This document shows, one piece after another, positions 7,177-63,624 of a stretch of 64,000 nt of DNA. Where the stretch lies: contig NC_092672.1 of NCBI RefSeq assembly GCF_964355755.1, positions 18,162,501 through 18,226,500 on the forward strand, written 5' to 3'. Under the pieces are notes generated by a model. The model saw only the letters and a program-made list of their open reading frames with translations. It searched no databases and had not been told where the DNA came from. How positions within the stretch are numbered: position 1 is the stretch's first letter; the number at the start of each line of letters is the position of its first letter. The translations under genes were made by a program, and so were the position numbers. The stretch comes from Antedon mediterranea (taxonomy: Eukaryota > Echinodermata > Crinoidea > Comatulida > Antedonidae).

Positions 7177-7445
7177 CATTTTTACTCGGGGTACCCGAGT
7201 CTAGGACTTACTCATTTTCTCCTCCACCATCTGGACACTATTGAGTAAAAAGTGCGATTTTTAAAGTACTACTCCTCCATTATTAGTTGTAGTATTGAGC
7301 TGGGATTTGGCATGAATATACTACAGGGACATGTCCTCAAAGCTATAGAGCCGGATTTTTAATTTTTTGTTAATTAATTTGTTTAATTAAGAAGCCACAA
7401 TGTGTGACACACACCACAGCGTTATGTAGTTATATGGTTATATGC

Positions 7446-7517
7446 GGCTTCTTGGCGTAGTGGTTATCATGTTTGCTTAACACGCAGAAGGTACCTGGTT
7501 CGAGCCCGGACGAAACC
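7446..7517 (+). tRNA. tRNA-Val(AAC)-like, copy 1, probably pseudo
   Basis: A 72-nt cloverleaf-like sequence has anticodon stem TTTGC/GCAGA around a CTTAACA-type loop (anticodon AAC), T loop GGTTCGAGCCC and 3' stem CGAAACC followed by a T-run. The 5' strand is GGCTTCT in place of GGTTTCG, so the acceptor stem is mispaired. The internal promoter boxes look intact. It could still be transcribed by Pol III, but a functional tRNA is doubtful. Confidence 0.6.
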
Positions 7518-7734
7518 TTTTTTTTTTAAACTTTATGGTGAAAAGTACTGTATACGCAATATGATAATTATACACAGTATATCTTATTTTTATTATTTTT
7601 TTAAATACTTATTTTGTGTAATCGGTAATTATCACTTTTACACATGTTTATTTTTCTTTGTGCTTATTACCATATTTATTTGTAATTTAAATGGATTAAA
7701 AAACTTTCTGTAACCCACATTTTTAGTGTAAGTG

Positions 7735-7805
7735 GGTTTCGTAGTGTAGTGATTGTCAAGTCTGCTTAACACGCAGAAGGTCCCGGTTAGAGCCCTGGCG
7801 AAACC
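7735..7805 (+). tRNA. tRNA-Val(AAC)-like, copy 2, probably pseudo
   Basis: The acceptor stem GGTTTCG/CGAAACC pairs perfectly and the anticodon arm CTGC-TTAACAC-GCAG gives AAC. The B box is damaged (GGTTAGAGCCC in place of GGTTCGAGCCC), one base is missing in the variable/T-stem region, and the D arm reads GTGATTGTC. This is the second gene of the first tandem unit. Confidence 0.6.
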
Positions 7806-7956
7806 TATTTTTCTTTAACTTTAACTGTATACGTCTGTATACAGCTTTTTTCTCTGTACCCCGAGTATTGCACATTCGTGCTTTTTTGTTAATTAATTTG
7901 TTTAATTAAGAAGCCACAATGTGTGACACACACCACAGCGTTATGTAGTTATATGC

Positions 7957-8028
7957 GGATTCTTGGCGTAGTGGTTATCACGTTTGCTTAACACGCAGAA
8001 GGTACCTGGTTCGAGCCCGGGCTAAACC
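7957..8028 (+). tRNA. tRNA-Val(AAC)-like, copy 3, probably pseudo
   Basis: This is the first gene of the second tandem unit and is nearly identical to copy 1. Box B GGTTCGAGCCC is intact, the anticodon is AAC and a T-run follows. The 5' strand is GGATTCT against 3' TAAACC, so the acceptor stem is largely unpaired. Confidence 0.55.
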
Positions 8029-8241
8029 TTTTTTTTTAAACTTTACGGTGAAAAGTACTGTATACGCAATATGATAATTATACAGAGTATATCTTATTTT
8101 TATTATTTTTTAAAATACTTATTTTGTGTAATCGGTAATTATCACTTTTACACATGTTTATTTTGCTTTGTGCTTATTACCATTTATTTGTAATTTAAAT
8201 GGATTAAAAAACTTTCTGTAACCCACATTTTTAATGTAAGA

Positions 8242-8312
8242 GGATTCGTAGTGTAGTGGTTGTCAAGTCTGCTTAACACGCAGAAGGTCCCGGTTCGAGC
8301 CCTGGCGAAACC
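8242..8312 (+). tRNA. tRNA-Val(AAC)-like, copy 4, probably pseudo
   Basis: This is the second gene of the second unit. The B box is intact (GGTTCGAGCCC), the anticodon AAC and the acceptor 3' strand CGAAACC. The 5' strand is GGATTCG (one mismatch) and the T stem is one base short (GGTCCCGGTTC). It is the second-best preserved of the six tRNA-like copies in the window. Confidence 0.6.
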
Positions 8313-8395
8313 TATTTTTCTTTAACTTTCTAACTGTATACGTCTGTATACAGCTTCTTTCGCGGTACCCCGAGTATCGCACATTCGTGCTTGTT

Positions 8396-19819: not shown

Positions 19820-22800
19820 TTAGATAACAACATGAAGAAAATCACAGTCCTGAAAGATACAAAAATAATAATTAATTGTATTACAGTATGTTTGTTTTGC
19901 AGCTAAATTGTAAGCTATACTGGGATTGGGTGCAGGTGAATCTAGATAGCAACTACAGCCTGACAAGGAGATCCTTGAATATTCACCTATTTTTTGACTA
20001 CAGGTTGCAGTGCTCATTTGTACATTGTATTTTGTGTATATACTTTTTTGTAAATCAAAGTAGCTGTAGTTAGTATGTTATTGCTTAAATTTTCAATATA
20101 AATACAAATATAGGATACAAAACACTTCCGTCCGTTTCATGCTAAAGGCTATTGTGACAAAATGGCAAAATACAAAACAAAATTCATGTTTTTTTTTCAT
20201 ATCCATATTATACATGCTTACCTCACATGACATCAATAAATTCTGACTGCCAATCATATCCAGTGAATTAACAGAAAATACAGGCTGACCAAGACACATA
20301 CTGTTTGTATGCAGATCTACTCCATCACCTAACTGTTGCCTTACATTACTAAGCGTTAAACAGTCTTGCTGTAAAAATAAAAAAACGAATGATGTCAATT
20401 TATTAATATTATTTGGTTTTTAAAGATATAGTGTCCTCCAAAAACATGAAAAATCAAGATTAATTAAATCAGAGTTTGAATAGGTTATTTTGTAGTTTTA
20501 ATAAAGTTCATCACTTCCATAGAAAAAAAAAAATGTTTTCACTTATAAAATGACAAAATTAATTGTTAAATTCAATCAAACCCCACTGGCTGGTAGCCAA
20601 TTTTCCTATTTTTTCCTTTAAATTACATTTTTTTTCAAAAAAATTTTTTCAATCCAATTTTTGGTCAAAGTGGAGTGTCTTATATGACATTAAAATAGCA
20701 TAATTCAACAAAAATGTTTTTAAGAATTATTAGTCATCCACACCTTGATGGATAACGCCTTGTGATTGTATGAGGTCATCAACTTTTTTTCTATATTATT
20801 AGTTATCCGCAATATGCGGTTAACTCCTTGTGATTGTATGAGGTCATCAACTTTTTTTCTATATTATTAGTTATCCGCAATATGCGGTGAACTCCTTGTT
20901 ATTGTATTGGATCATCACTATTGTTTTCTGCATTATTCTTTCTCCCTTCCTTTTTTGTGAGTTACGTTTCTCTAAAACGTGTAAACATAACATTTCATAA
21001 CTTTGACAACATGTGGACATTTACGTGAAGTTGTGCACCTCCTATTTTCGACGTCAGAGTTGGGCAACGCGCGATTTTATGAATTGAACGAGCACAAATG
21101 TGCGATACTCGGGGCACAGTGATTTTCTTTTCAAAGATACCAAACATGTCTATAATGCGAAGATTTTCGTAAACCGGAAGTGACGTCACATAACCCGAAA
21201 TGACTTTATGACAAAAATTATGAATCTCCAAGTAATTTCCTTTTTAAATAATATGAAACACGGCTTAATTTTTTAAAACCGGAAGTGATGACGTGATAAT
21301 TATACATCCGGTTATGTTTTTTTATTCAGCCACAATAACCTATATTTTCCAGGATTAAGTTCATTGCATGATACGGATTTTTTAGGGTGGATTTAGACGA
21401 TAAGGATTTTGCCAGGGTGGGTTCATTCTACGTTTTTGCAAGGGTGGGTTCATTCTATGACTCTGATTTCATCAGGATGGGTTTATAGACGATACGGATT
21501 TTGCCAGGGTGGGTTTATAGACGATACGGATTTCATCAGGATGGGTTCACGAAGTACGAAAATTCTCTCTCTACAGCTTTGTTCACCTATTACCCTAGTA
21601 TATGCATGCCATGTTTCAGAGCCGTCAGACGACGTGTAAAGAACTAGTAGGGCTTGAAAGTTGGTTTAATAGTGTCAAGATGGAAGAGGACAAGATGAGA
21701 GAGTCCTACCCTGAGTAAAAACCAAAATTCATTTTGTATTGACACTTGTCGAGATTTAAGGACATATTGGTGTTTGGTATTATAACCTTTCACCCTGACC
21801 TTTTGACCTTTCGCCACATTTTCAAAATGTGTAACCAAGCCAAAAATTATTGTTTGACCATCCTAAGCCAATTTCTGAAATTAAATTCTCTGGACCTATA
21901 TGAAAGTTGATCTAGCTACCAGAGTATCTATAAATGATGTTGACAGAGCTTATAATTTATTTCATACTAAGCTCAATGAACATTCGTAAATAAAACAAAC
22001 CTTGGATTACAGACGGTATAATTAAATCCATTAATAAACGCAATAAACTCTACAAATTGACCAATCTAACCTGTGTTATATCTAGAAACTATTTCAGAAA
22101 CAAATTTAATACCTATGGGAATGATAAAGAAAACATGGCAAACTATTAAATTGATCCTCGGTAAAAATAATAATCGCCGACTTCCGTCTTTTATCAAAAA
22201 CAATAACATTAAAATCACCGATCCGCAAAATATTACTAACGAATAATGTGTGTGTATTCTATTTTTTAATGTTTGTTTAAATTTATATATATATCATGTT
22301 TTTAATTGTACTAATATATACTTGCCAATCTTTAAGAAGAATTTCTTATTTTATATGATAATGGAAAAATTAAGCTATTCAGTATCAGTATTCAGAAAGT
22401 ATGTGGGATCCTGAAACTATAGCTGAAAAGCTACCAAAACAAGAATGAGTTTGTGACAAAACCGATTTACTCACTAATTACTGTGCCATATATATTTTAT
22501 CAAGCCTTCATGTCTTTAATATACAAATACTGAATATTTACAAAGTATAATAAAATAATTGTATTTGTTTTATAACACACCTGCTGTGAATTATTATTAT
22601 TATCATTTTTTGTGTGGAAGTCTAGCAATATGAAAAAATTTAAGCGAAAATGATATATAGACTCGCATTTATAGCCATCAAGATAGAGCTGATATGCGAT
22701 TTTTGTTTGCTGTTAAAACCATTAAAGGCACCTATGTTTTTTCAATTTAAAGTCACAAACTTCATTTTATGTAAAATTAAATACTCTATGGGCCTATTGC

Positions 22801-31800: not shown

Positions 31801-34800
31801 GAGGCCTACGATTATTGTCACAAAACCTTTTTCAAGAGCATAGAGTCAAAAATCAGTGAGGCCACAGATCTTTTTACGTTGTAGCCTCAAGTGTATGGAA
31901 CAGTTTACCAGCAACAGTTAAATGCTTCACTAGTTTCAAGACCAACCTGAAGACGTCGCTATTTGCTGATGTACTCATACGTTGCTAATGCACAAATCGC
32001 CATGAGCTCCACATGGGTGGGGCACACCGGCGCTATACAAGTTTTCATTTATTATTATTATTATTGCAGTTTCGCACCTAAGAGAGATTTCACGGTCACC
32101 GCAGCGCTGCAGGTGAATGAGAGATTGTGGGCGGAAAGTGCAGTTAGCACCGGGCCGCCATTGACGATTGAGCACAGAAGAGGAATGTAAATTCCATGGT
32201 AAGAAAGGCAAAGGCCAACTACTACATTGGCTTGTGTGAAGAACATGCAGCAGATCAGAAAGGACTTTTTAAAATTGTTAACCAACTCCTTCATCATCGC
32301 CAGGTATCACCTCTCCCAGATAGTCTTTCTGACTTAGATCTTGCGAACAGGTTCTGTCAGTTTTTCACAGACAAGATCAAGATCATCAGAGATGACTTCA
32401 AGATTGATGACATGTCATTTAATGAGCCTGTGACAGCTGTTCATCAGCATCTCACAACATTTACACCAGCATCTCAAGATGAGATCCGCAACATTCTGAT
32501 GAAATCACCAACAAAATCATGCAGGTTAGATCCAGTTCCTACTTCTATACTGAAGAAGTGTATAGACGCAGTCGTTCCAATAATAACGGAAATCATTAAC
32601 CATTCTCTTAATACCGGCATAGTGCCAGATGAACTGAAAATTGCTCACGTTCGTCCTTTAATAAAAAAGCAAAACTTGGATCATAACACGCTGAAAAATT
32701 ACCGCCCGGTGTCGAATCTTTCTTTTCTTGGAAAGACTCTGGAGCGTGTAGTGACATCACGCATTACTCCATATCTTCAAAAGCATAATTTAAATGAGAA
32801 TTACCAGTCGGCATATCGTGCATGTCATAGCACGGAGAGTTCCCTTTTAAAGGTACAGAATGATTTGTTACAAGGAATGAATGATGGGAAAATAACGCTA
32901 TTGGTGTTGTTGGATTTGTCAGCAGCGTTTGATACAGTTGATCACCAAAGACTGATAACCCGTCTGAGAAATCGCATTGGCATAAATGGTGTTGCTCTTA
33001 ACTGGTTCCAGTCATATCTTACAGGAAGACGTCAGCTAGTCTGTATCAATGATGCATTCTCAGATGAAGCTTGCCTGGAATATGGTGTACCACAGGGGTC
33101 AGTAATTGGGCCTGGCCAGTTTTCCATTTATACGCTTCCCCTTGGTGACATTATTCGCAAACACAGTCTACATTTCCATTTCTATGCAGATGATACACAG
33201 ATTTATGTGTCAGTAAATCCAGTGCAAAGGGATGTTGCTGCAGCAATCAGTAAGATGGAAGCCTGTATAGAAGATGTTCGCAATTGGATGACAACAAATT
33301 ACCTAAAGTTGAATGATGGAAAGACAGAGTTTATTATCGTCGGGTCTAAATGTAACATCTCCAAAATCAACATCACACATATCAGAATCGGAAACTCTAA
33401 CATCGCTCCCTCATCGGTGGTCCGGAATCTGGGAATCATGCTGGATAGTAATCTCACTATGGAAGCACAAATAACAACTGTATCCAAAGCAGCATGCATA
33501 TCGATTAGGAACCTTGGTCGTATTCGCGGTAATCTTAACAAGAAAACAGCTGAATTGATTGTACACTCATTTGTCACTTCTAAAATTGACATTGGTAATG
33601 CCTTGTTGTTTGGCATACCAAAATCTCAAATACAACGTTTGCAGCGCTTGCAAAATATGGCAGCTAGAATTGTAACTTATACAAAATCAAACGCTCACAT
33701 AACTCCTGTCCTGATGGATTTGCATTGGTTGCCTGTTCAACAACGTATTAAGTACAAACTTGCGTTGTTTGTATTCAAGATCCTAAATGACAGTGCTCCT
33801 GCTTATTTATCTGACCTTGTGGATCGTTACGAATCATCCCGCAGAGGCCTACGATCATTGTCACAAAACCTTCTTCAAGAGCGTAGAGCGAAAAATCAGT
33901 GGGGTCAGAGATCTTTTTACGTTGCGGCCGCAAGTGTATGGAACAGCTTACCAGCAACAGTTAAATGCTCAACTAGTCTAAACAGTTTCAAGACCAACCT
34001 AAAGACGTCGCTATTCGCTGATGTTCTCGCACGTTGTTAATGCACAAAGCGCCATGAGCGCCACATGGGTGGAGGATACCGGCGCTATATAAGTTTTCAT
34101 TTATTATTATTATTACATGGACGATTTAATTGTTGATCGTACGTGGGATCCAGTGAACTGTGCATCCTGTGTAGCATGTCATGGTACGTGGGACCCACTG
34201 AACTGTGCATCCTGTGTAGCATGTCATGGTACGTGGGACCCAGTGAACTTTGCATCCTGTGTAGCATGTCATGGTTGCTGTGCTTTTATTTTATTCATAT
34301 GTTCTTTTTTGATACCAAAAATATACTGTTTAGCATTTTTATGGTGGACAATTATAAATCCTAATCATTTTCGTGGACCGATCGGCTTCCCTTTATTTTT
34401 AGAATGGGTCCGATCGTCCACACAGTTGGGTATTTCCCCTCGCCTAATGTTTTTTAATGAATTTAAATAATAAATTAAAATTTGTAAATAGTAATAGTAG
34501 TTAGTAATAATAAATTGTTTACCTTCTTTCATAAGCTCCAGTTGAATTTCTTCCATAATGCTTAGAACTGTGTCAATATCATCTATCTCTTCTACAAGCT
34601 GCAAAAAAAAAGTCATACAGTAAGTCCCACGCAACTGGTGCGAGACCCAATCTTATGATCCCGCGCCATGCACCTAAAATGTTATTGTTTTAAACAAATC
34701 TCAATTTTTTTTTTATTACTGCCACAATAACATAAAAATCAACAACTTTATTGGGAGTAGGCATACTGTATGTTATGGATTATGCATGTTTCAGGCCTGG

Positions 34801-53800: not shown

Positions 53801-56800
53801 AAGTTAAGACAATAGTAAATTGATTTTTACGGTACAAAATATTTTAACTTTTTTACACTAGATTGTATCAGAATGCAGATTGTAGGAATATTAGTATCAA
53901 TAAATAGTGTATTCTAAATCCCTAGTTAAATTGAAATGACAAACCTGTTTCTAAATTACGTATTCAGTACTAGAGTAATATTTAGATACAATCGACCATT
54001 TTAATTCCATCTTCAGCATGTAGTTATTATTTACAAGTAATAATGCGTTCTTCTAATATTTCATCCTATTATATACAGTTTAATAATTTAACTGACCTTC
54101 TAATATTTCATCTTATTTTACAAGCATATTGTAGATATTTTAGCCAACGTAGCTGAATGGTAACAGCAAGCTCTTCGTTGATCAATTATTGATTACTGTT
54201 TCAGGTCACCTTGGTAATTCTACAGTCCATGTCTGTTATTCATGAATATATAATAATTTACTGCGTTCTTGTTAACATGGTTTGCAAACCATGATGAAGG
54301 TTCAAAACAGGATTTTTAAATTGCATTTAGTATGTTCTCTATATTTGTTGTGCAACTGAAATTTTGACTTTTACAGTTTATTTGAATATGCCGATTTTAT
54401 ACTAAATATTAATTCGTCATTTAAGATAATTCATAATGATGTATTAAATGATAACTTTAAATATTTTAAAATAAATTTTTAATTAAAAACATTCATGACA
54501 GTATGTCAGACAAAGATTATAAGATAGTGCCTGCTTAGAGATAAAATACAAGATTTGATATCCCCGACAGAATGATATTTTGCTCAAGAATCAATCAAAA
54601 ATATATATTTCCCGAAGCACTAGCTGATGGAAATATAATTCTCGAGAGCATAATATCATTCCCGAGTGGATGTCAAATCTTATATTTTACTGATATAAAA
54701 GGTGATATCTGTTATATTATTTTTTTTTTTTTAAATTTTATTTCATACTCATCCAACAGCGAGTAGCCCGCCAATTACAGGATGGATAAACTATTTAATA
54801 ATTTCACAAGACAAACATATACACAAGATGCTCTACATAAACAAAGACTTACTATTAAGTCTTTGGGAGTGGAGTTGTAAATTGTCATGAGAAAAAAACC
54901 CTGACATATGACAGGACTTGAACCCAGGACCCTTAGATTGGTAGCAAAGCATCATAACCACCAAGCCACAGCTCCACTTATATAGCCAACAACAAGTAGA
55001 ATATCTACTGGGTCGGGTAGCTAGGCCTCCTTTATGTAATAAGCCTGCCTATAGTTAGGCGTTGCATTCACCTAATATACAGATAATTACTAATTAATGA
55101 TTCCTTGGTAATAAAATATTCACTTATGCCTAGGTCGTTTAAATAATAACAGAAGAATTTCCATCAATAAGCCTACATTAATAATAATAATTATTATCAG
55201 GTAGGTTGAATAAATAATAATTGTCTTCTTCGATCCGAATCACCGGAAGTTCAGCGTGCCGCACGTACTAGGTTACTACCGTGAGTATCGACCAACCACA
55301 AAACGTCTTTCCTCACGTCCATAGAGGGTGGATAACAAATGAGGGCGCTATGTATGCATAGTTTAAATAGTTTAGTTGATTAATTTCTTCAAGTAAGTTA
55401 CGTGGCGCAGCGAGTAAAACTTTGTATCGTGATGATGTCAACTAATCTTTGCGAGTTCAAGTCTCAGTAGATGACTTTTGTTTATTAGTGTTCCCACACG
55501 AAAATGACACAGTCAATATCATTGTACTCGAGAATTTACTGGATTTTAAATGTTTAATGACAGGGACACGATAGTCACGCAGTCATGGGAAAATTACTCT
55601 GTCAATATCATCGTACTCGAGGAAATTTACGATTTAGGATTCTCGCAGCAGTAGTCATGTGATGCAGTTTCAACCAATCATGTTCACGTATTTACCTAGG
55701 CTATGTAATATAATCATTTATCACATATTTTGCTGTTCTTCTAAATACTATAAACATGAAAAAATTGTATCATAATAATCAACAATCATTTTTTAGATAT
55801 TTATAAGTTTATAAAAGGATTTCTTATACAAAATTACAAGAATGTATTAATTTATTCTAAGATTTAAATTAGTTTAATATAAATATTAGACAAAGGTCTT
55901 AAAAACATTTTAAATATAAAGAAACACCAATAGCCAATATAAAAAAGGAAAAAATACAATGGGATCAGGCATTAAGCAGGCGGATGAAATAGGGGATATT
56001 TGGTACATTGGACTGATTTAATGGAGTTGCTAAGCGCCTTGGTTAAGCCAGAGTGCCATACGACATTGGCATATTCGAGCAAGGGCCTAATATACCCACA
56101 ATAGACAGAGCATAGCTCTTTTTACTCGGGGTACCTGAGTCTAGAACTCGCTCATTTTCTCCTCCATCTGGACACTATTGAGTAAAAAGTGCGATTTATA
56201 AAGTACCACTCCTCCCTTATTCGTTGTAGTATTGAGCAGGGATTTGGCATGAAAATACTAAAGGCACATATCCTCAAAGCTATAGAGCCGTATATTTGAA
56301 TTTGCCTTTTTTGTTAATTAATTTGTTTAATTAAGACGCCACAATGTGTGACACACCACAGCGTTATGTTGTTATATGTGGCTTCTTGGCGTAGGGGTTA
56401 TCACGTCTGCTTAACACGCAGAAGGTCCCCGGTTTGAGCCCGGGCAAAACCTTTTTTTTAAAAACTTTATGGTGAAAAGTACTGTATGCGCAATATGATA
56501 TAGAGTATAATACACTACAGTGTATCTTGTTTTTATTATTGTTTTAAATACTTATTTTGTGTAATCGGTATTAATTATCAATTTTACACATGTTTATTTT
56601 GCTTTGTGCTTTTTACCATTATTTATTTGTAATTTAAATGGATTAAAAAACTTTACGTAACCCACATTTTTGGTGTAAGAGGTTTCGTAGTGTAGTGGTT
56701 ATCAAGTCTGCTTAACACGCAGAAGGTCCTCGGTTCGAGCCCTGGCGAAACCCATTTTTCTTAAACTTTATGGTGAAATATACTGTATAAATAATATGAT

Positions 56801-59800
56801 ATAGAGTATATCTCGTTTTATTACTCGGGGTACCTGAGTCTAGGATTCTCTCATCTTTTCCTCTTCTTCTTCGATCTGGACACTATTGAGTAAAAGTGCG
56901 ATTTATAAAGTACTACTCCTCCCTTATTCGTTGTAGTATTGAGCTGGGATTTGGCATGAATATACTACAGGGACAGGGATATTTTAATTTCAAACCTTAT
57001 CACGTCTCGAAGATGGTACCATATAGCCGTATTTGGTAGCGAGGTTATTGATATGTGACGTTACATCCGGTCTTACGACGTCTATACAGCTTCTTTTGCT
57101 GTACCCCGAGTATCGCACATTCGTGCTTGTTTAGACTCCTTAAGAAAAGAGTTTTTAGGATGTTATCGCAAATATGCCTATCCGATTTAAAATCGTTTTT
57201 TAGCATGACTCCAAGTATGTTAGCATGGTTGACAAATGTTAATTCATTGCCACCAAGATAAATTTTATTTTCATGAATATTCTTATTAATACTAAAACAT
57301 ATTTGTAGAGCCTGGCATTTAGAAGGGTTAAGATCCATCGCATTGTTTACGATTTTCATATACTGATAAGTATAATTGGTTAATTGGTGCCATTAACAGC
57401 ATCATTAATAATTTGAATGGCAATAGGACTAAACTTGGTTCCTTGGAGGAAACCAGCATCTAACATGATAACAAAGGGAATTATTATACTTTACACATTG
57501 TTGATTTCCTGGATATGGAGGGGACGATAAATAAATAAGTAGTATTCAATATTAGTAAAAGATATATGGAACGATGGCATTATGTACACTGAGTATGCAT
57601 AATACATCTTGTGCATTAATCGATTGGTGCTGACGTAGTCTACCTGACGGTATTGCTCTTATACAACGACAGACTTGAGATCAAGTACAAGATCATGTTT
57701 AAATTCGATTATGTTGAACAGATTTTATATTGCATTTCTTTTTGGAAATTATCACTGATATTCCAGAATATTGACTAAAATATAATTTTCATGTATGTAT
57801 TGTAATGACCCATCTGTGTACTACAGAGCATGTGTATTTTACATGATAGAATTAAGGTTATTATATAACATTATTAACCATTATTTCGAGGATAAAGACT
57901 ACTGTAAGTGCCCTGTTGTGTTGATGCCCCACTGGTTCACTTTCTTATCTAACTCCAACACTCTTGCACTCTTACCACTTTAATTCTTATGGCTATAACC
58001 CTCTTGCATACACATACTGTACATTTGGTATTCACCAAAATATGATTTTAAAAGAAACCTTTAGAATCATGCTCAAAATGACATGTTTTTTTTTTATTGG
58101 ATTGCAAATTTATTATTTTATTTAAGTAAATATTATTCGTATATAAATCTTCTTATTAAATTCTCTAATTGCCAAATAAATATAGCTATTTGAACAAGGA
58201 TAACAATAGCATATGCCACTGCATATTGATTAATTTGCAGTTCTTTGCCTACCTACTACACAACCACTCATAAGCACTCCTCATTAACATTAGCATTATG
58301 CTTGACTGATCCATGTGCATGCATGATAACTCTTCTATTTGGCCTGCTGTAGTATTGTCAAATATTTTACGGATCATTTATAGTATAAAGAAACAAAATT
58401 ATATATATGCTACATAAAATGTGTACAGTTTATTTAAAAAATTAAAATAAAAGATCATTATATTTGTATATTTTTTATTAGAAGCATAACTTCATTAGCT
58501 AGTTTGCACTGGCATATTAATTGTTTTACTGTTATTATTAAGAACCAATTGTCATCATATGCAGAATTTGATGATGGTGGTTTGCGGTGATGGGTGTAGT
58601 GGCCTACAGTTGTTGTGTAGCTGTAGCGCGTATATCTAAAGGCTGCTACACACTAGGGCGATAACAATCGATTATAAAAGAATAAACAGTTTTCCTTGTA
58701 GAACTATAATAGGATAACCAAATTTGATAAAAATCATTTCATTGGACGTGTGAAAATATTATTTTCATCAAAGGCAGCATATTTAAATGTTTATCCTATA
58801 GTTCTATGGTAAAAACTTTTTAGATTTCATTGGTTTTATGTAGGAAAAATGTACTGTATGTATGTATCTGTTTATCGTTATCATCCTAGTGTAAGCGTGA
58901 AGCGTTTATATTAAAATAGTTAAAAAACAAAAATTTGTATTGTTCACTGGAGACACTTACGAAATAAACAGGGGTGCAGCCAGCGATGAAATCAAGGGGG
59001 GAGGGGCATCAACAGCTAATTGGAGTATTTTGCGAGCTAAGCGAAGCCCCCTGTATGCTTTGGCGAACTAGGGCAATCTAGATCATTTGAATCAGTTTAC
59101 GCGTGCATAAATATGACAATGTTAACACTAATACACTTTAACAAAAAACCAATCTGAATAAAAATAGGGGGGAGTCAGGACCCCTGTGACCCCCACTGGC
59201 CTCACCCCTGATAAACAACAACAGTTTGATAGGGGGAGTCAGGGCCCCTGTGACCCCCACTGGCTGCACCCCTGATAAACAACAACAGTTTGATAGGGGG
59301 GAGTCAGGGCCCCTGTGACCCCCACTGGCTGCACCCCTGATAAACAACAACAGTTTGATAGGGGGGAGTCAGGGCCCCTGTGACCCCCACTGGCTGCACC
59401 CCTGATAAACAACAACAGTTTGATAGGTTCTACCCAAACCAAAAAAAACCTCCCTGCTTCAATCCTATTTATAGTTCCTATTTACCTTTTTTGGATTATA
59501 ACCAATTGGCTACAGTGGAACATGTTGGGCGTGTCGGATGCAAAGAGCTTTCAATAATGAGTTTTGTAAATTTTTATTTTGGAATTTTATCTGAAAGCAG
59601 TTTTGAAAAAATTTGGTGCCAAAACATAAAGATAATTACATTTTTAATGATTTCTTAAACTGAAATCCTAAATCTTCTGTGACTTAAAGGACAACTTGAC
59701 CGAGGAACATATTTTTACAATGTATTAGGGATGTACATATGATTTTAGAACAATCGCGAGATTAAGGATATCGCCGCACTCGCTCGCCGTACAGCCGTCG

Positions 59801-62800: not shown

Positions 62801-63624
62801 ATTATGTTTATTTTTATGGTGTTTGCTATCCATGACAAGACACTTTTTAAGCCACTATGTGGCTGATGTTGTTGGTATGTTTTAAGGGCAGAGTCTAGGA
62901 TTTCTTCTATAACTTTAATCATCAAATAACAATGTGATATAGAACTGCAAATTTGTTGTCAGCTGGTTGATAACAAAACCTATTTCTAAAGCCATTTGGC
63001 TTACATTTTTGGTGCTTTAATTTAATTAATTAATTTGACACAATAAATATGGGAAATCTGTAAGAATGAGAAAAAGTCACCCAATCGAGATTCGAACCTG
63101 GAAACTTCTGCTTGATATGCAGATGTTCTAACCATTAAACCACTGGAGCTTTCATGGTATTGTTGAAAGTCGATTGGATAGCGATTCTTTAATACTCTCG
63201 GCGTGGTACGCCGGAACAGCACTAGTCCCTTTAATTGTATGCATGCGCACCAGAGATCAAATACGTATATATATATTTGCTTAAAATACTTGTTAATGTT
63301 TTACATTTTCCTATTCTACAGTGGCATACAATATGGCTGTGTGCTTTCTTGTCCCAGCCAAAATATCCCCGATTATCTAATTTATAGTAACTTGGTATTA
63401 TCTGATATTTTATCACATATTTATTTATCCTTTAAAAATATATAGTATTTACAAAAGAAAATTCAATTCTTTGGTTTAAGATTTTGTTGTTGAATGTATG
63501 TAGTTAATAATGCTTTTAATGTGTTTATTTTCTCCAGTCTGTGTGCACAAAATGCGGCGTTGATACCCTTAATTGCCAGAAACAACCTATACTACTTTGC
63601 AAGATTTGTAGTGAAAACAGAGAA
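47814..63624 (+). CDS. RPH3A/RPH3AL: Rabphilin/Noc2-type Rab effector, 5' half (runs off the window)
   Basis: Rab3/Rab27 effector of secretory-vesicle exocytosis. Exons: 47814-47890, 49976-50119, 60680-60809, 63538-63624, all with GT/AG borders and compatible phases. Exon 1 (MGEISMGGSMDRW, then CPNDRQLALRA) matches the Noc2 N-terminus. Exon 2 has LNTGWSFHT and a charged helix ending EQERIG. Exon 3 has RLVERLDNMKKNALGNG, then CILCG and CFDCKR. Exon 4 has SVCTKCG and LLCKICSENRE. Together these form the Rab-binding helix and a four-pair Cys FYVE-type zinc finger. The usual RSGAWF motif and anything beyond it (two C2 domains in rabphilin, none in Noc2) lie outside the window, so orthology to RPH3A or RPH3AL is open. 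Introns are 2.1, 10.6 and 2.7 kb and full of repeats. Confidence 0.9.
48440..48612. repeat. Dispersed repeat R fragment
   Basis: AATTACAAAAGAAAAACAAA, AATATCAATCCG, GGGATTTATAGCGGGCCGC and TTATCTCAATAGGACCA match 38,508-38,636 and 53,095-53,236. It lies in intron 1 of the Rab-effector gene. Confidence 0.75.
48613..49279. other. Intron 1 sequence with a MITE fragment
   Basis: 48,930-49,155 contains GTGAAAATATTATTTTCATC + AAAGGCA and TATCCTATAGTTCTAGGAT, shared with 58,680-58,810. Nothing else recognised. Confidence 0.45.
49290..49900 (+). mobile_element. Penelope-like element, GIY-YIG endonuclease fragment and 3' UTR
   Basis: 49,305-49,583 encodes VPVFISKKVKDNIRK, then CVVYKFKCDLCDASYVGYTC and RHLYQRIVEH, the zinc-knuckle plus GIY-YIG-like endonuclease of Penelope-like retroelements. 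A frameshift near 49,580 moves the rest (IGQHLKDHNVIVN, YEMLYIRQLKSSLNKQ) to another frame. The RT is absent, so this is a truncated, dead copy. It sits in intron 1 of the Rab-effector gene, about 75 bp before exon 2, sense orientation. Confidence 0.8.
49854..49895 (+). ncRNA. Degenerate hammerhead-ribozyme-like motif of the Penelope element
   Basis: TTGATAATGACCCCATGATG followed by GAGTCGAAACGTCG can be laid out as a hammerhead core. TTGATAAT stands for CTGATGA, a stem GACxCCA/TGGxGTC follows, then GAAAC and GTC. Hammerhead motifs are known in Penelope-like elements. Two conserved core bases differ (C to T, G to A), so cleavage is unlikely in this copy. Confidence 0.35.
50488..51845. mobile_element. 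Unclassified element: TTTACTAG...CCCGCC hairpin start, TTATAATATAGAT end
   Basis: Starts TTTACTAGCAATTATACCCG, with a near-palindrome ACCCGCCCCAGGGCGGGT at 50,503-50,520. Ends with (ACAAACAG)-type tracts, CTCTCTCACTTATAATATAG and ATAATATAGAT. Internal duplications: 51,545-51,635 against 51,695-51,800 (GGTACAATTGCxATCATTTT + GATACCCCATA), and 50,690-50,785 against 51,275-51,360. Similar starts and ends occur in repeats of many invertebrates. The C-rich open frames are not genes. Confidence 0.55.
51846..52160. other. Intron 2 sequence, nothing recognised
   Basis: AT-rich, with no repeat boundary or coding signal seen. Confidence 0.4.
52161..53410. repeat. Large repeat related to 44,690-46,160, containing repeat R
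   Basis: AATAATGGCATGAGGTGAAG, ACGAATATAAAACATTCATT + ATTTGTT, ATTCCTGTCATTTG, GCCAAGGCCTACATTTGATT, AAAACAGTAACA, TGTGACGTTTTAGAAAAATA, AACAATGCACTACCT, GGATTTATAGCGGGCTGC and CCTAGCAAGCCTAAAACGCC recur in the same order at 44,690-46,160. That locus differs by carrying the foldback element. This locus differs by a LINE-tail insertion at 52,625. Confidence 0.75.
52625..52848 (+). mobile_element. LINE 3'-end insertion with (AAAAT)n tail and 7-bp target duplication
   Basis: The insert ends with TTGATTG(AATAAAATAAAATAAA). AAATTAT flanks both sides (52,618-52,624 and 52,849-52,855). The related loci near 45,117 and 38,155 read straight through (AAATTACGATAAAAAG, AAATTATGATAAAAAG) and act as empty sites. 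No coding sequence remains; it is a 5'-truncated LINE tail. Confidence 0.8.
53411..54544. other. Intron 2, AT-rich, nothing recognised
   Basis: Very AT-rich. No coding frame, RNA gene or clear repeat boundary was seen. Confidence 0.45.
54719..54980 (-). mobile_element. tRNA-derived SINE with an empty site in copy A
   Basis: On the minus strand it begins AGTGGAGCTGTGGCTTGGTG, then GTTATGATGCTTTGC (A-box region), and has CCTGGGTTCAAGTCCTGTC (B box). It ends in an A-rich tail (plus-strand T-run at 54,720-54,732). Copy A at 37,070-37,085 reads TCTGTTATATTACATAGCC (as reverse complement) without it. The right side here (CTTATATAGCC) suggests a short TTATAT duplication. Confidence 0.75.
55380..55475 (+). 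repeat. tRNA-like segment within copy B
   Basis: GTGGCGCAGCGAGTAAAAC and, about 45 bases on, GCGAGTTCAAGTCTCAGTAG resemble A- and B-box halves of a tRNA. The counterpart in copy A is at 36,550-36,640 on the minus strand. The cloverleaf is not intact. Confidence 0.45.
55721..55959. other. Spacer, nothing recognised
   Basis: AT-rich sequence between repeat copy B and the split LINE. Confidence 0.4.
56380..56451 (+). tRNA. tRNA-Val(AAC)-like, copy 5, probably pseudo
   Basis: The anticodon arm TCTGC-TTAACAC-GCAGA and the T stem CCCGG/CCGGG are intact and the T-run terminator is present. The 5' strand GGCTTCT does not pair with 3' CAAAACC, and the B box is GGTTTGAGCCC. Confidence 0.6.
56681..56752 (+). 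tRNA. tRNA-Val(AAC), copy 6, best preserved
   Basis: The acceptor stem GGTTTCG/CGAAACC is perfect, the D arm is GTGTAGTGGTTATCA, the anticodon stem TCTGC/GCAGA carries AAC, and the B box GGTTCGAGCCC is intact. The T stem CTCGG/CCTGG has one non-pair and one wobble. The 3' side continues CATTTTTC, a possible Pol III terminator. If any copy is functional, it is this one. Confidence 0.7.
57481..58649. other. Intron 2, nothing recognised
   Basis: AT-rich. The 62-codon frame at 57,795-57,983 has no domain. No other signal. Confidence 0.4.
58650..58893. mobile_element. Short MITE with ACTAGGxxGATAAC inverted ends
   Basis: The left end CACACTAGGGCGATAACAAT and the right end GTTATCATCCTAGTGT are inverted. 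AACTATAATAGGATAACC and TATCCTATAGTTCTA pair further inside. The central GTGAAAATATTATTTTCATC + AAAGGCA word is shared with 49,045 and, inverted, 40,090. Confidence 0.65.
58894..59159. other. Spacer with a transposon-end phrase
   Basis: AGGGGTGCAGCCAGCGATGA then an A/G-rich GGGGGGAGGGGC resembles the repeat unit that follows and many animal transposon ends. Confidence 0.35.
59162..59430. repeat. About 65-bp tandem repeat, four copies
   Basis: GGGGGGAGTCAGGGCCCCTG, then TGACCCCCACTGGCTGCACC and CCTGATAAACAACAACAGTT + TGATA, repeats four times with few changes. Open minus-strand frames over it are repeat-derived. Confidence 0.9.
59431..60679. other. Intron 2, distal part
   Basis: No gene. (AT)n at about 60,334-60,357. 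An exon 3 acceptor with the run CTACCCACAG closes the interval. Confidence 0.45.
60933..61683. repeat. 17-bp satellite (AGTAACCAAATTGAACT)n, about 44 copies
   Basis: A strikingly homogeneous array of AGTAACCAAATTGAACT begins 123 bp after exon 3 of the Rab-effector gene. Almost no substitutions are visible over 750 bp, implying recent amplification or homogenisation. Confidence 0.95.
61684..61902. repeat. 16-bp satellite (AGTACCTGCTGGAACT)n, about 14 copies
   Basis: Continues directly from the 17-bp array. Both units share GAACTAGTA; only the insert changes (ACCAAATT against CCTGCTG). The first units are mixed (AGTTACCTGCTGG, AGTTCCTGCTGG). Confidence 0.95.
61903..63082. other. Intron 3, nothing recognised
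   Basis: AT-rich. The 116-codon minus-strand frame at 62,575-62,925 shows no domain, and its composition matches the surroundings. Confidence 0.45.
63083..63165 (-). repeat. tRNA pseudogene or SINE head
   Basis: The minus strand reads AGCTCCAGTGGTTTAATGGT, then TAGAACATCTGCATATCAAG, CAGAAG and CAGGTTCGAATCTCG. D arm, anticodon arm (CTGC-ATATCAA-GCAG) and B box are recognisable. The acceptor ends do not pair, so a pseudo-tRNA or SINE promoter is likely. Confidence 0.55.

Follow-up and report, generated by a model that had tools for sequence, protein, structure and literature searches.

The feature at positions 7179-8395 of the analysed window is very probably a HINE-like, non-autonomous rolling-circle element of Helentron type whose cargo was captured from the host tRNA-Val array. 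The window is the whole stretch of 64,000 nucleotides that was analysed, C3:18162501-18226500 of the 354-Mb genome. The original prediction had described two loci with common ends around tRNA-Val(AAC) genes and had suggested a non-autonomous DNA element that spreads such genes; the Helentron class, the host tRNA-Val array as source of the tRNAs and the many members without tRNAs go beyond that interpretation. The features of the window are listed below.

7179-8395, + strand: copy 1 (locus 1), with left end, two tandem tRNA blocks and right end
7179-7194, + strand: left end of copy 1, a T-run followed by ACTCGGGGTAC, the 5′ subterminal inverted repeat; the palindrome ACTCGGGGTACCCGAGT runs on to 7200
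7180-7366, + strand: LE module, 187 bp, common to family members without tRNA
7367-7445, + strand: T5 block (TTAATTAATTTG...), homologous to the 5′ flank of host-array tRNA genes
7446-7518, + strand: tRNA-A, tRNA-Val(AAC)-derived, called by ARAGORN, below the Rfam gathering score
7519-7733, + strand: spacer, homologous to the intergenic spacer of the host array
7734-7807, + strand: tRNA-B, tRNA-Val(AAC)-derived, called by ARAGORN, Rfam 42.2 bits
7856-7881, + strand: internal right end (inverted repeat and hairpin) between the two tRNA blocks
7886-8314, + strand: second tRNA block, with T5, degenerate tRNA-A (7957-8029), spacer and tRNA-B (8241-8314, Rfam 42.4 bits)
8365-8395, + strand: right end of copy 1, with the GTACCCCGAGT inverted repeat, the GCACATTCGTGC hairpin and TTGTT
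56119-57131, + strand: copy 2 (locus 2), with left end, tRNA block, second left end at 56823, MID remnant and right end at 57101-57131
56380-56452 and 56681-56753, + strand: tRNA-A and tRNA-B of copy 2, both tRNA-Val(AAC), called by ARAGORN
21087-21721, − strand: related Helentron-type element without tRNA, right end at 21107 and left end TTTTTACTCAGGGTAGG at about 21707-21721

With up to 1 mismatch, ACTCGGGGTAC was found 7 times in the window against 0.23 expected, and none of 100 shuffles reached 7. ARAGORN called five tRNA-Val(AAC) genes in the window, three in copy 1 (7446, 7734 and 8241) and two in copy 2 (56380 and 56681), and the degenerate fourth tRNA of copy 1 (7957-8029) was recovered with blastn at 95% identity. 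These results bear out the ends, internal order and tRNAs originally described for both loci. The boundaries first proposed for locus 1, 7177-8395, lay within 2 bases of the true end on the left and were exact on the right. Locus 2 had been taken as one unit with two tRNAs; both tRNAs are present, and the second left end at 56823, before the right end, had gone unseparated. An end at about 21,100 that had been regarded as lone is in fact the right end of the related minus-strand element. The Rfam tRNA model gave five matches in the window at the gathering score, four of them in copies 1 and 2 and one elsewhere; in copy 2 tRNA-B scored 47.6 bits and tRNA-A 30.8 bits. A weak tRNA match on the minus strand at 63078-63149, outside both copies (Rfam 33.6 bits), is perhaps a SINE or a tRNA pseudogene, and a 614-aa open frame at 32196-34040 resembles, by eye, a LINE reverse transcriptase.

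The left end of the family consists of a T-run and ACTCGGGGTACCCGAGT, and the right end reads GTACCCCGAGTAT[C/T]GCACATTCGTGCTTGTT. ACTCGGGGTAC stands directly after the 5′ T-run and GTACCCCGAGT ends 20 bp before the 3′ end. The left-end hairpin of copy 1 has a z score of −3.28. Most copies listed have GCAC-ATTC-GTGC as 3′ hairpin, a short structure that taken by itself is unremarkable (z −1.94, with 14 of 200 shuffles folding as well).

Genome-wide, a search with 7177-8395 returned 110 matches among the best 40 of 675 candidates scored, and copy number from this query is a lower bound because only those 40 were scored. Beyond the window itself at least 18 copies, on nine contigs, span the query from base 1-3 to base 1219 at 93-97% identity, and the remainder are partial. 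The copies are thus dispersed, full-length and constant in their ends, as expected of a mobile element under the original proposal; simple local duplication was rejected on the same nine-contig distribution. The right-end pattern, with the GCAC/GTGC arms required, had 474 exact matches in the genome and its reversed control none. Right ends with A, C or G before GTACC number 6, including the copy in the window, and none of the 6 lies close to a Helitron_like_N match.

The AAC anticodon arm (up to 1 mismatch) occurs 667 times in the genome (control 0) and the TTAATTAATTTG block (up to 2 mismatches) 350 times, some inside the host array. Since that array holds 120 genes, at least 547 of the 667 tRNA-Val-like arms lie outside it, a figure in which the arms are not each tied to an element. 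C1 has 34 exact AAC arms, of which 26 are followed within 1.5 kb by an exact right end on the same strand; the chance expectation is about 0.1% per arm. The other eight have no exact right end nearby; two of these belong to L063, whose right end is mutated.

Anatomy was analysed in 40 of the 58 listed C1 right ends, chosen by hand with close tandem neighbours mostly dropped. Sequence of the tRNA block was present in 23 of the 40 loci (in L016 and L030 just after the right end) and absent from 17. The minimal tRNA-less form consists of LE (∼187 bp), MID (∼111 bp) and RE (∼47 bp). A 709-bp form has the order LE-T5-tRNA-A-spacer-tRNA-B-tail-RE, and a 1.2-kb form is the two-block form of window copy 1. 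The composite form, LE-MID-RE′-T5-tRNA-A-spacer-tRNA-B-tail-LE′-MID-RE, is seen for example in L012, L009 and L033; in composites such as L012 the host block lies directly against RE′, and its tail is followed by a second LE. Direct head-to-tail RE-LE junctions were found in L008 and L033. Mean identity was 99.3% among seven copies of 708-709 bp, 98.5% among five two-block copies and 93.5% among four minimal copies, and the first of these values points to recent activity of the tRNA forms compared.

Some copies occur in tandem settings. At C10:9783338-9791542 three element matches of equal score stand at an exact spacing of 3,573 bp, so the element seemingly became part of a tandem array there. 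L019 (C1:14712885-14715010) is built of tandem 500-bp units of tRNA-B, tail, LE′, MID and RE, a satellite-like form of the element, and ARAGORN calls the tRNAs of two units tRNA-Asp(atc). In L002, positions 519-639 on the minus strand hold a divergent 5S rRNA-like sequence (67.3 bits) ∼0.9 kb from the element copy, perhaps a 5S-derived SINE.

The mode of insertion was analysed in the 37 of 48 loci that passed a two-end filter. Some of the 37 are not clean genomic flank pairs: L003, L019 and L035 were scored with an internal LE′ as left end, and the right flank of L016 and L030 consists of tRNA block. A T precedes TTTTACTC in 36 of the 37, the exception being L017, in which the pattern cut inside a duplicated left end, and among the 37 no pair of flanks repeats more than 3 bases. 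L025 lies within repeated sequence, and its flanks, joined after trimming of the T-runs, gave 42 matches among the 40 of 1787 candidates scored; all 40 long matches cross the join, as an empty site does. Three aligned loci carry 5-6 bases beyond the trimmed join. The empty site of L066 has a run of 7 T, equal to the 5 on the left and 2 on the right of the element in L025, and this arithmetic indicates insertion within the T-run with no duplication. Insertion in TT or T-runs without target-site duplication, a mark of Helentrons and HINEs, was thus found, with one empty site aligned. A search with the flanks of locus 2 for an empty site in a LINE-like sequence was unusable because the best non-self matches (81-82%) start 35 bp from the insertion.

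Other marks of Helentrons and HINEs are also present: short, asymmetrical subterminal inverted repeats near both ends, a stem loop close to the 3′ end and, by way of one broken copy, a coding partner with the same ends that has Rep, a PIF1-type helicase and a C-terminal endonuclease. That copy is located as follows.

C2:21060506-21075760, − strand: frameshifted coding copy, with left end, RE′, tRNA block, Helitron_like_N, PIF1, Exo_endo_phos and right end

Its domains are in Helentron order, with E values of 6.6e-9 for Helitron_like_N, 3.4e-16 for PIF1 and 2e-5, just over the cut-off, for Exo_endo_phos. The frames are broken and parts are interrupted, and among coding copies the 5′ left end was seen in this one alone. 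A piece reading CLDYYAVITYITHYYMKDDTG may be the Y2 region of Rep; no HUH part was recognised. With the C2 endonuclease piece as query 18 matches were obtained, the weaker ones mostly about 30-38% identical, and a right end lies downstream in all five endonuclease loci that were cut out, the C2 copy included. The C7 locus has a long open helicase-endonuclease frame. L076 has the endonuclease side of a coding region followed by a MID remnant, the tRNA block, LE′, MID and RE, with RE′ lost at the junction. Relative to the coding region the block is upstream in C2 and downstream in L074 and L076, and this varying order implies that the capture history is not unique. A comparison of the helicase piece with viral contigs gave no relative. 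A TIR transposon or MITE was rejected on the unequal distances of the inverted repeats from the two ends, the lack of a target duplication and the Rep/helicase type of the coding relative.

In the genome as a whole 87 matches to Helitron_like_N were found. None of four sampled Helitron-gene stretches (L049+L050, L051, L052 and L053), which may not reach the element ends, has the ends of the family, so much of the Helitron content of the genome is not a partner. Fifty of the 87 matches lie in open frames of about 1,600-3,180 aa (C1, C3, C4, C6 and C8). Several of these long frames form same-strand clusters at a spacing of roughly 20-48 kb, for example C8:799805-936734 and C1:14509036-14555074, which suggests a young, locally clustering family of giant Helitrons; one such stretch, L049+L050, is among those sampled that lack the ends of the tRNA-carrying family. 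Downstream of its giant Helitron gene the hairpins GGTTATCCGC-CAAGT-GCGGATAACC repeat, and they are similar to palindromes (GTTATCC...GCGGATAAC) in a 68-bp tandem repeat at 20726-20937 of the window. Palindromes of this GTTATCC type may be the end of another family.

The host array was reached with a pattern for a metazoan tRNA-Val 5′ half. It lies at C10:15239346-15284749 and comprises 120 tRNA-Val genes called by ARAGORN on one strand, 49 AAC, 43 CAC and 28 TAC. Within 47,001 bp (C10:15239000-15286000) no match to LE, MID, RE or TAIL was found. Across the first 10 kb Rfam reports 20 of 22 genes, at 52.4-62.4 bits, and leaves two unreported. Part of the array consists of higher-order repeats, 4,341 bp long, in which AAC, CAC and TAC anticodons are mixed.

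The tRNA block of the element is 83-86% identical to the array, tRNAs and spacers alike. The best contiguous match, C10:15255001-15255454, takes in the 5′ flank, tRNA, spacer, tRNA and start of the tail, with 401 of 469 columns matching in a wider alignment. Homology to the host starts inside RE′ with 13 nt, TTCGTGCTTTTTT, that occur both in the right end of the element and ahead of a host tRNA-Val(AAC) gene. On its other side the block has a tail that corresponds to the DNA following a different host AAC gene as far as CTCGTTTTATT; LE′ starts there. At 15 of 17 RE/T5 junctions the usual TTGTT terminus is missing, and at 2 it is kept. Because the block matches a contiguous stretch of the array, spacers included, and the array is free of Helentron sequence, we infer that a Helentron captured host tRNA genes. 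Host to element is the probable direction, given that the array is clean, holds three isoacceptors and has tRNAs with the better scores.

A fossil right end that adjoins the host block and is followed by a second left end suggests bypass of a terminator. In the proposed course of events a Helentron would have become joined to the array at its right end, at the 13-nt match, through insertion in a T-run or template switching. A later transposition would have started at the left end, failed to stop at the right end, left behind as the fossil RE′, continued across two tRNA genes and terminated at the right end of a second element a short way further downstream. The 709-bp and 1.2-kb forms would then have arisen by deletion and tandem joining, and Helentron proteins acting in trans would have copied them to hundreds of sites, the tRNAs thereafter mostly decaying as passengers. 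We give roughly even chances to the full reading of the feature as a composite rolling-circle transposon, in which two Helentron insertions of the same orientation mobilised the host DNA between them, a functional tRNA-Val pair. On that reading the first terminator, bypassed, is visible at the junction; the family would provide the first clear example of a Helitron-class element that captured a non-coding RNA gene and amplified it, to several hundred copies; L063, the least decayed, would record the tRNAs near the time of capture; and some copies would possibly be transcribed by Pol III.

The 13-nt match is compatible with template switching or recombination as well as with insertion and read-through, and capture by template switching or microhomology-mediated repair during replicative transposition, of the filler-DNA type, is a tentative alternative to insertion and terminator bypass that we hold possible at somewhat less than even chances. 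It draws on the identity at the RE′/host junction and on the missing TTGTT terminus at most RE/T5 junctions. The identity may be partly coincidence because T-runs are also the insertion target, and the sandwich of RE′, host DNA and LE′ is the expected product of bypass between two neighbouring insertions, a process shown experimentally for Helraiser (PMC4778049). That the order of events was the reverse, with Helentron copies bringing in tRNA-Val genes and the array expanding later, is very unlikely: some element copies are themselves tandem (L019 and L033), but the 47 kb of array carry no element module, and its three isoacceptors and high-scoring genes stand against element copies that are nearly all AAC, score at most 53.7 bits and often fall below threshold. 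SINEs are the commonest source of dispersed tRNA-like sequence, and the two tRNA-like parts with downstream T-runs would suit a tRNA-derived SINE, alone or nested in a DNA element, in which the tRNA is the Pol III head of an RNA-copied retroposon. This is the least probable of the readings considered and hardly credible, since copies start and stop at constant DNA ends outside the tRNAs, no tail or target duplication was seen, DNA of the host array matches both the 5′ flank and the inter-tRNA spacer, and the right end is common to copies that code for helicase and endonuclease.

Under capture from the array the state of the tRNAs in the copies can be compared with that of the host genes. In the 40 C1 loci Rfam gave 24 tRNA matches at the gathering score, assigned by position as 21 tRNA-B and 3 tRNA-A; tRNA-B scored 34.3-53.7 bits, most often 47.4, and tRNA-A 33.1, 33.1 and 39.1 bits. 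At a looser threshold, in other loci, tRNA-B went down to 30.5 bits and tRNA-A was mostly at 28-33 bits. The C2 coding copy scored 38.2 bits for tRNA-A and 36.1 for tRNA-B. With 42.3 bits the tRNA-A of L063 comes nearest to the host genes, and the best element tRNA, tRNA-B of L031 (53.7 bits), overlaps the low end of the host range. By eye, stem pairs have been lost in tRNA-A, and a single base is deleted from the T-stem in the tRNA-B consensus. Divergence was compared in 38 complete tRNA-A/spacer/tRNA-B units, excluding L001 (the window locus) and dropping incomplete units (the C2 coding copy, L063 and others). The mean pairwise difference per site was 0.055 for tRNA-A, 0.039 for the spacer and 0.026 for tRNA-B, and by site permutation over the 38 units neither tRNA differed significantly from the spacer (0.13 for tRNA-A, 0.14 for tRNA-B), a test that is rough because the units are related copies and not independent. 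A second count gave 0.020 for tRNA-B vs 0.039 for the spacer, and differences from one host unit of 0.127 (tRNA-A), 0.135 (spacer) and 0.091 (tRNA-B).

On these sequence comparisons tRNA-B may be under mild constraint. Retention of the tRNAs as useful, either as tRNA-Val supply for the host or as a Pol III promoter for the element, is nevertheless unlikely. Sequences resembling, by eye, the A and B boxes, the anticodon loop and the T-runs persist, the L031 tRNA-B lies inside the host range and tRNA-B is on average less divergent than the spacer. Against this, the difference for tRNA-B is not significant, tRNA-A is not slower than the spacer, both tRNAs show damage to their stems and the host array already supplies 120 genes. 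The scores and stem changes fit element-borne tRNAs that are mostly decaying passengers. The proposal of a non-autonomous DNA element is upheld by dispersed constant ends, an empty site and coding relatives that share the right end; that it spreads tRNA genes needs a caveat, since the copies are mostly decaying.

Among systems with similar behaviour, Vojvoda Zeljko et al. in 2020 reportedly described oyster satellite repeats carried by non-autonomous Helentron elements. Judged by title, tandem-repeated cargo dispersed by a Helentron-type element is common to both cases, and the cargo there is satellite-like, not tRNA genes. The bacterial rolling-circle elements IS91 and ISCR undergo one-ended transposition, in which a missed terminator lets neighbouring genes be carried along. 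This resembles the present case, and IS91 is mentioned in PMC10701932. In anatomy the family corresponds to the non-autonomous Helentrons HINE and DINE-1 (INE-1) described by Thomas, Vadnagara and Pritham in 2014 (PMC4067079). These likewise have subterminal inverted repeats that form a palindrome at the 5′ end, carry a stem loop close to the 3′ end, insert within TT in T-rich DNA with T-runs at the borders, have a Rep/helicase/endonuclease partner and, in some copies, contain tandem repeats. The present family differs in its cargo, a tRNA gene pair with native spacers, and in an inverted repeat of 11 bp that ends 20 bp from the 3′ end, compared with 12-15 bp and 38-60 bp in mite families.

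For Helraiser, PMC4778049 reports terminator bypass with flanking DNA carried in about 11.7% of events. Helraiser and Helibat share with the present family a terminator hairpin that can be bypassed, with downstream flank carried to a downstream terminator; they belong to another Helitron class (CTAG 3′ end), and the captured parts named for them are promoters and gene sequences, whereas here the bypassed end survives inside the element as a fossil beside host DNA. In Arabidopsis a tRNA-Cys cluster overlaps annotated Helitrons, and three Helitron-finding programs gave no reliable element there (PMC10701932). That 2023 paper noted that capture of a tRNA, if it had taken place, would provide the first cargo of non-coding RNA, and confirmed none. 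The association of tRNA genes with Helitron-like repeats is common to both cases, and relative to the Arabidopsis case the ends, empty site, coding relatives and source array are all seen here. A catfish paper deals with satellites that contain tRNA-derived parts and with one satellite related to Helitrons, and it does not describe a Helentron carrying tRNA genes. In the open-access literature, mostly judged by title and with subscription papers and Repbase outside the scope, no confirmed tRNA-carrying Helentron was found.

Gene fragments and promoters are already known as cargo of Helitron-class elements. That such an element can also capture a non-coding RNA gene was suspected before and is not clearly shown in the open-access literature searched. 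The family described here is real, dispersed and recently active, of Helentron type and with captured host tRNA-Val genes, and the tRNA pair has been copied to several hundred places in the genome, where it is now mostly decaying. The model of capture by read-through becomes testable on natural DNA, since this genome provides the element ends, an empty site, relatives with coding sequence, the array of origin and a junction in which the bypassed terminator survives. For tRNA annotation the family is a warning, as many tRNA-Val-like arms, 26 of 34 on C1, are transposon cargo and ARAGORN calls many of them as genes.
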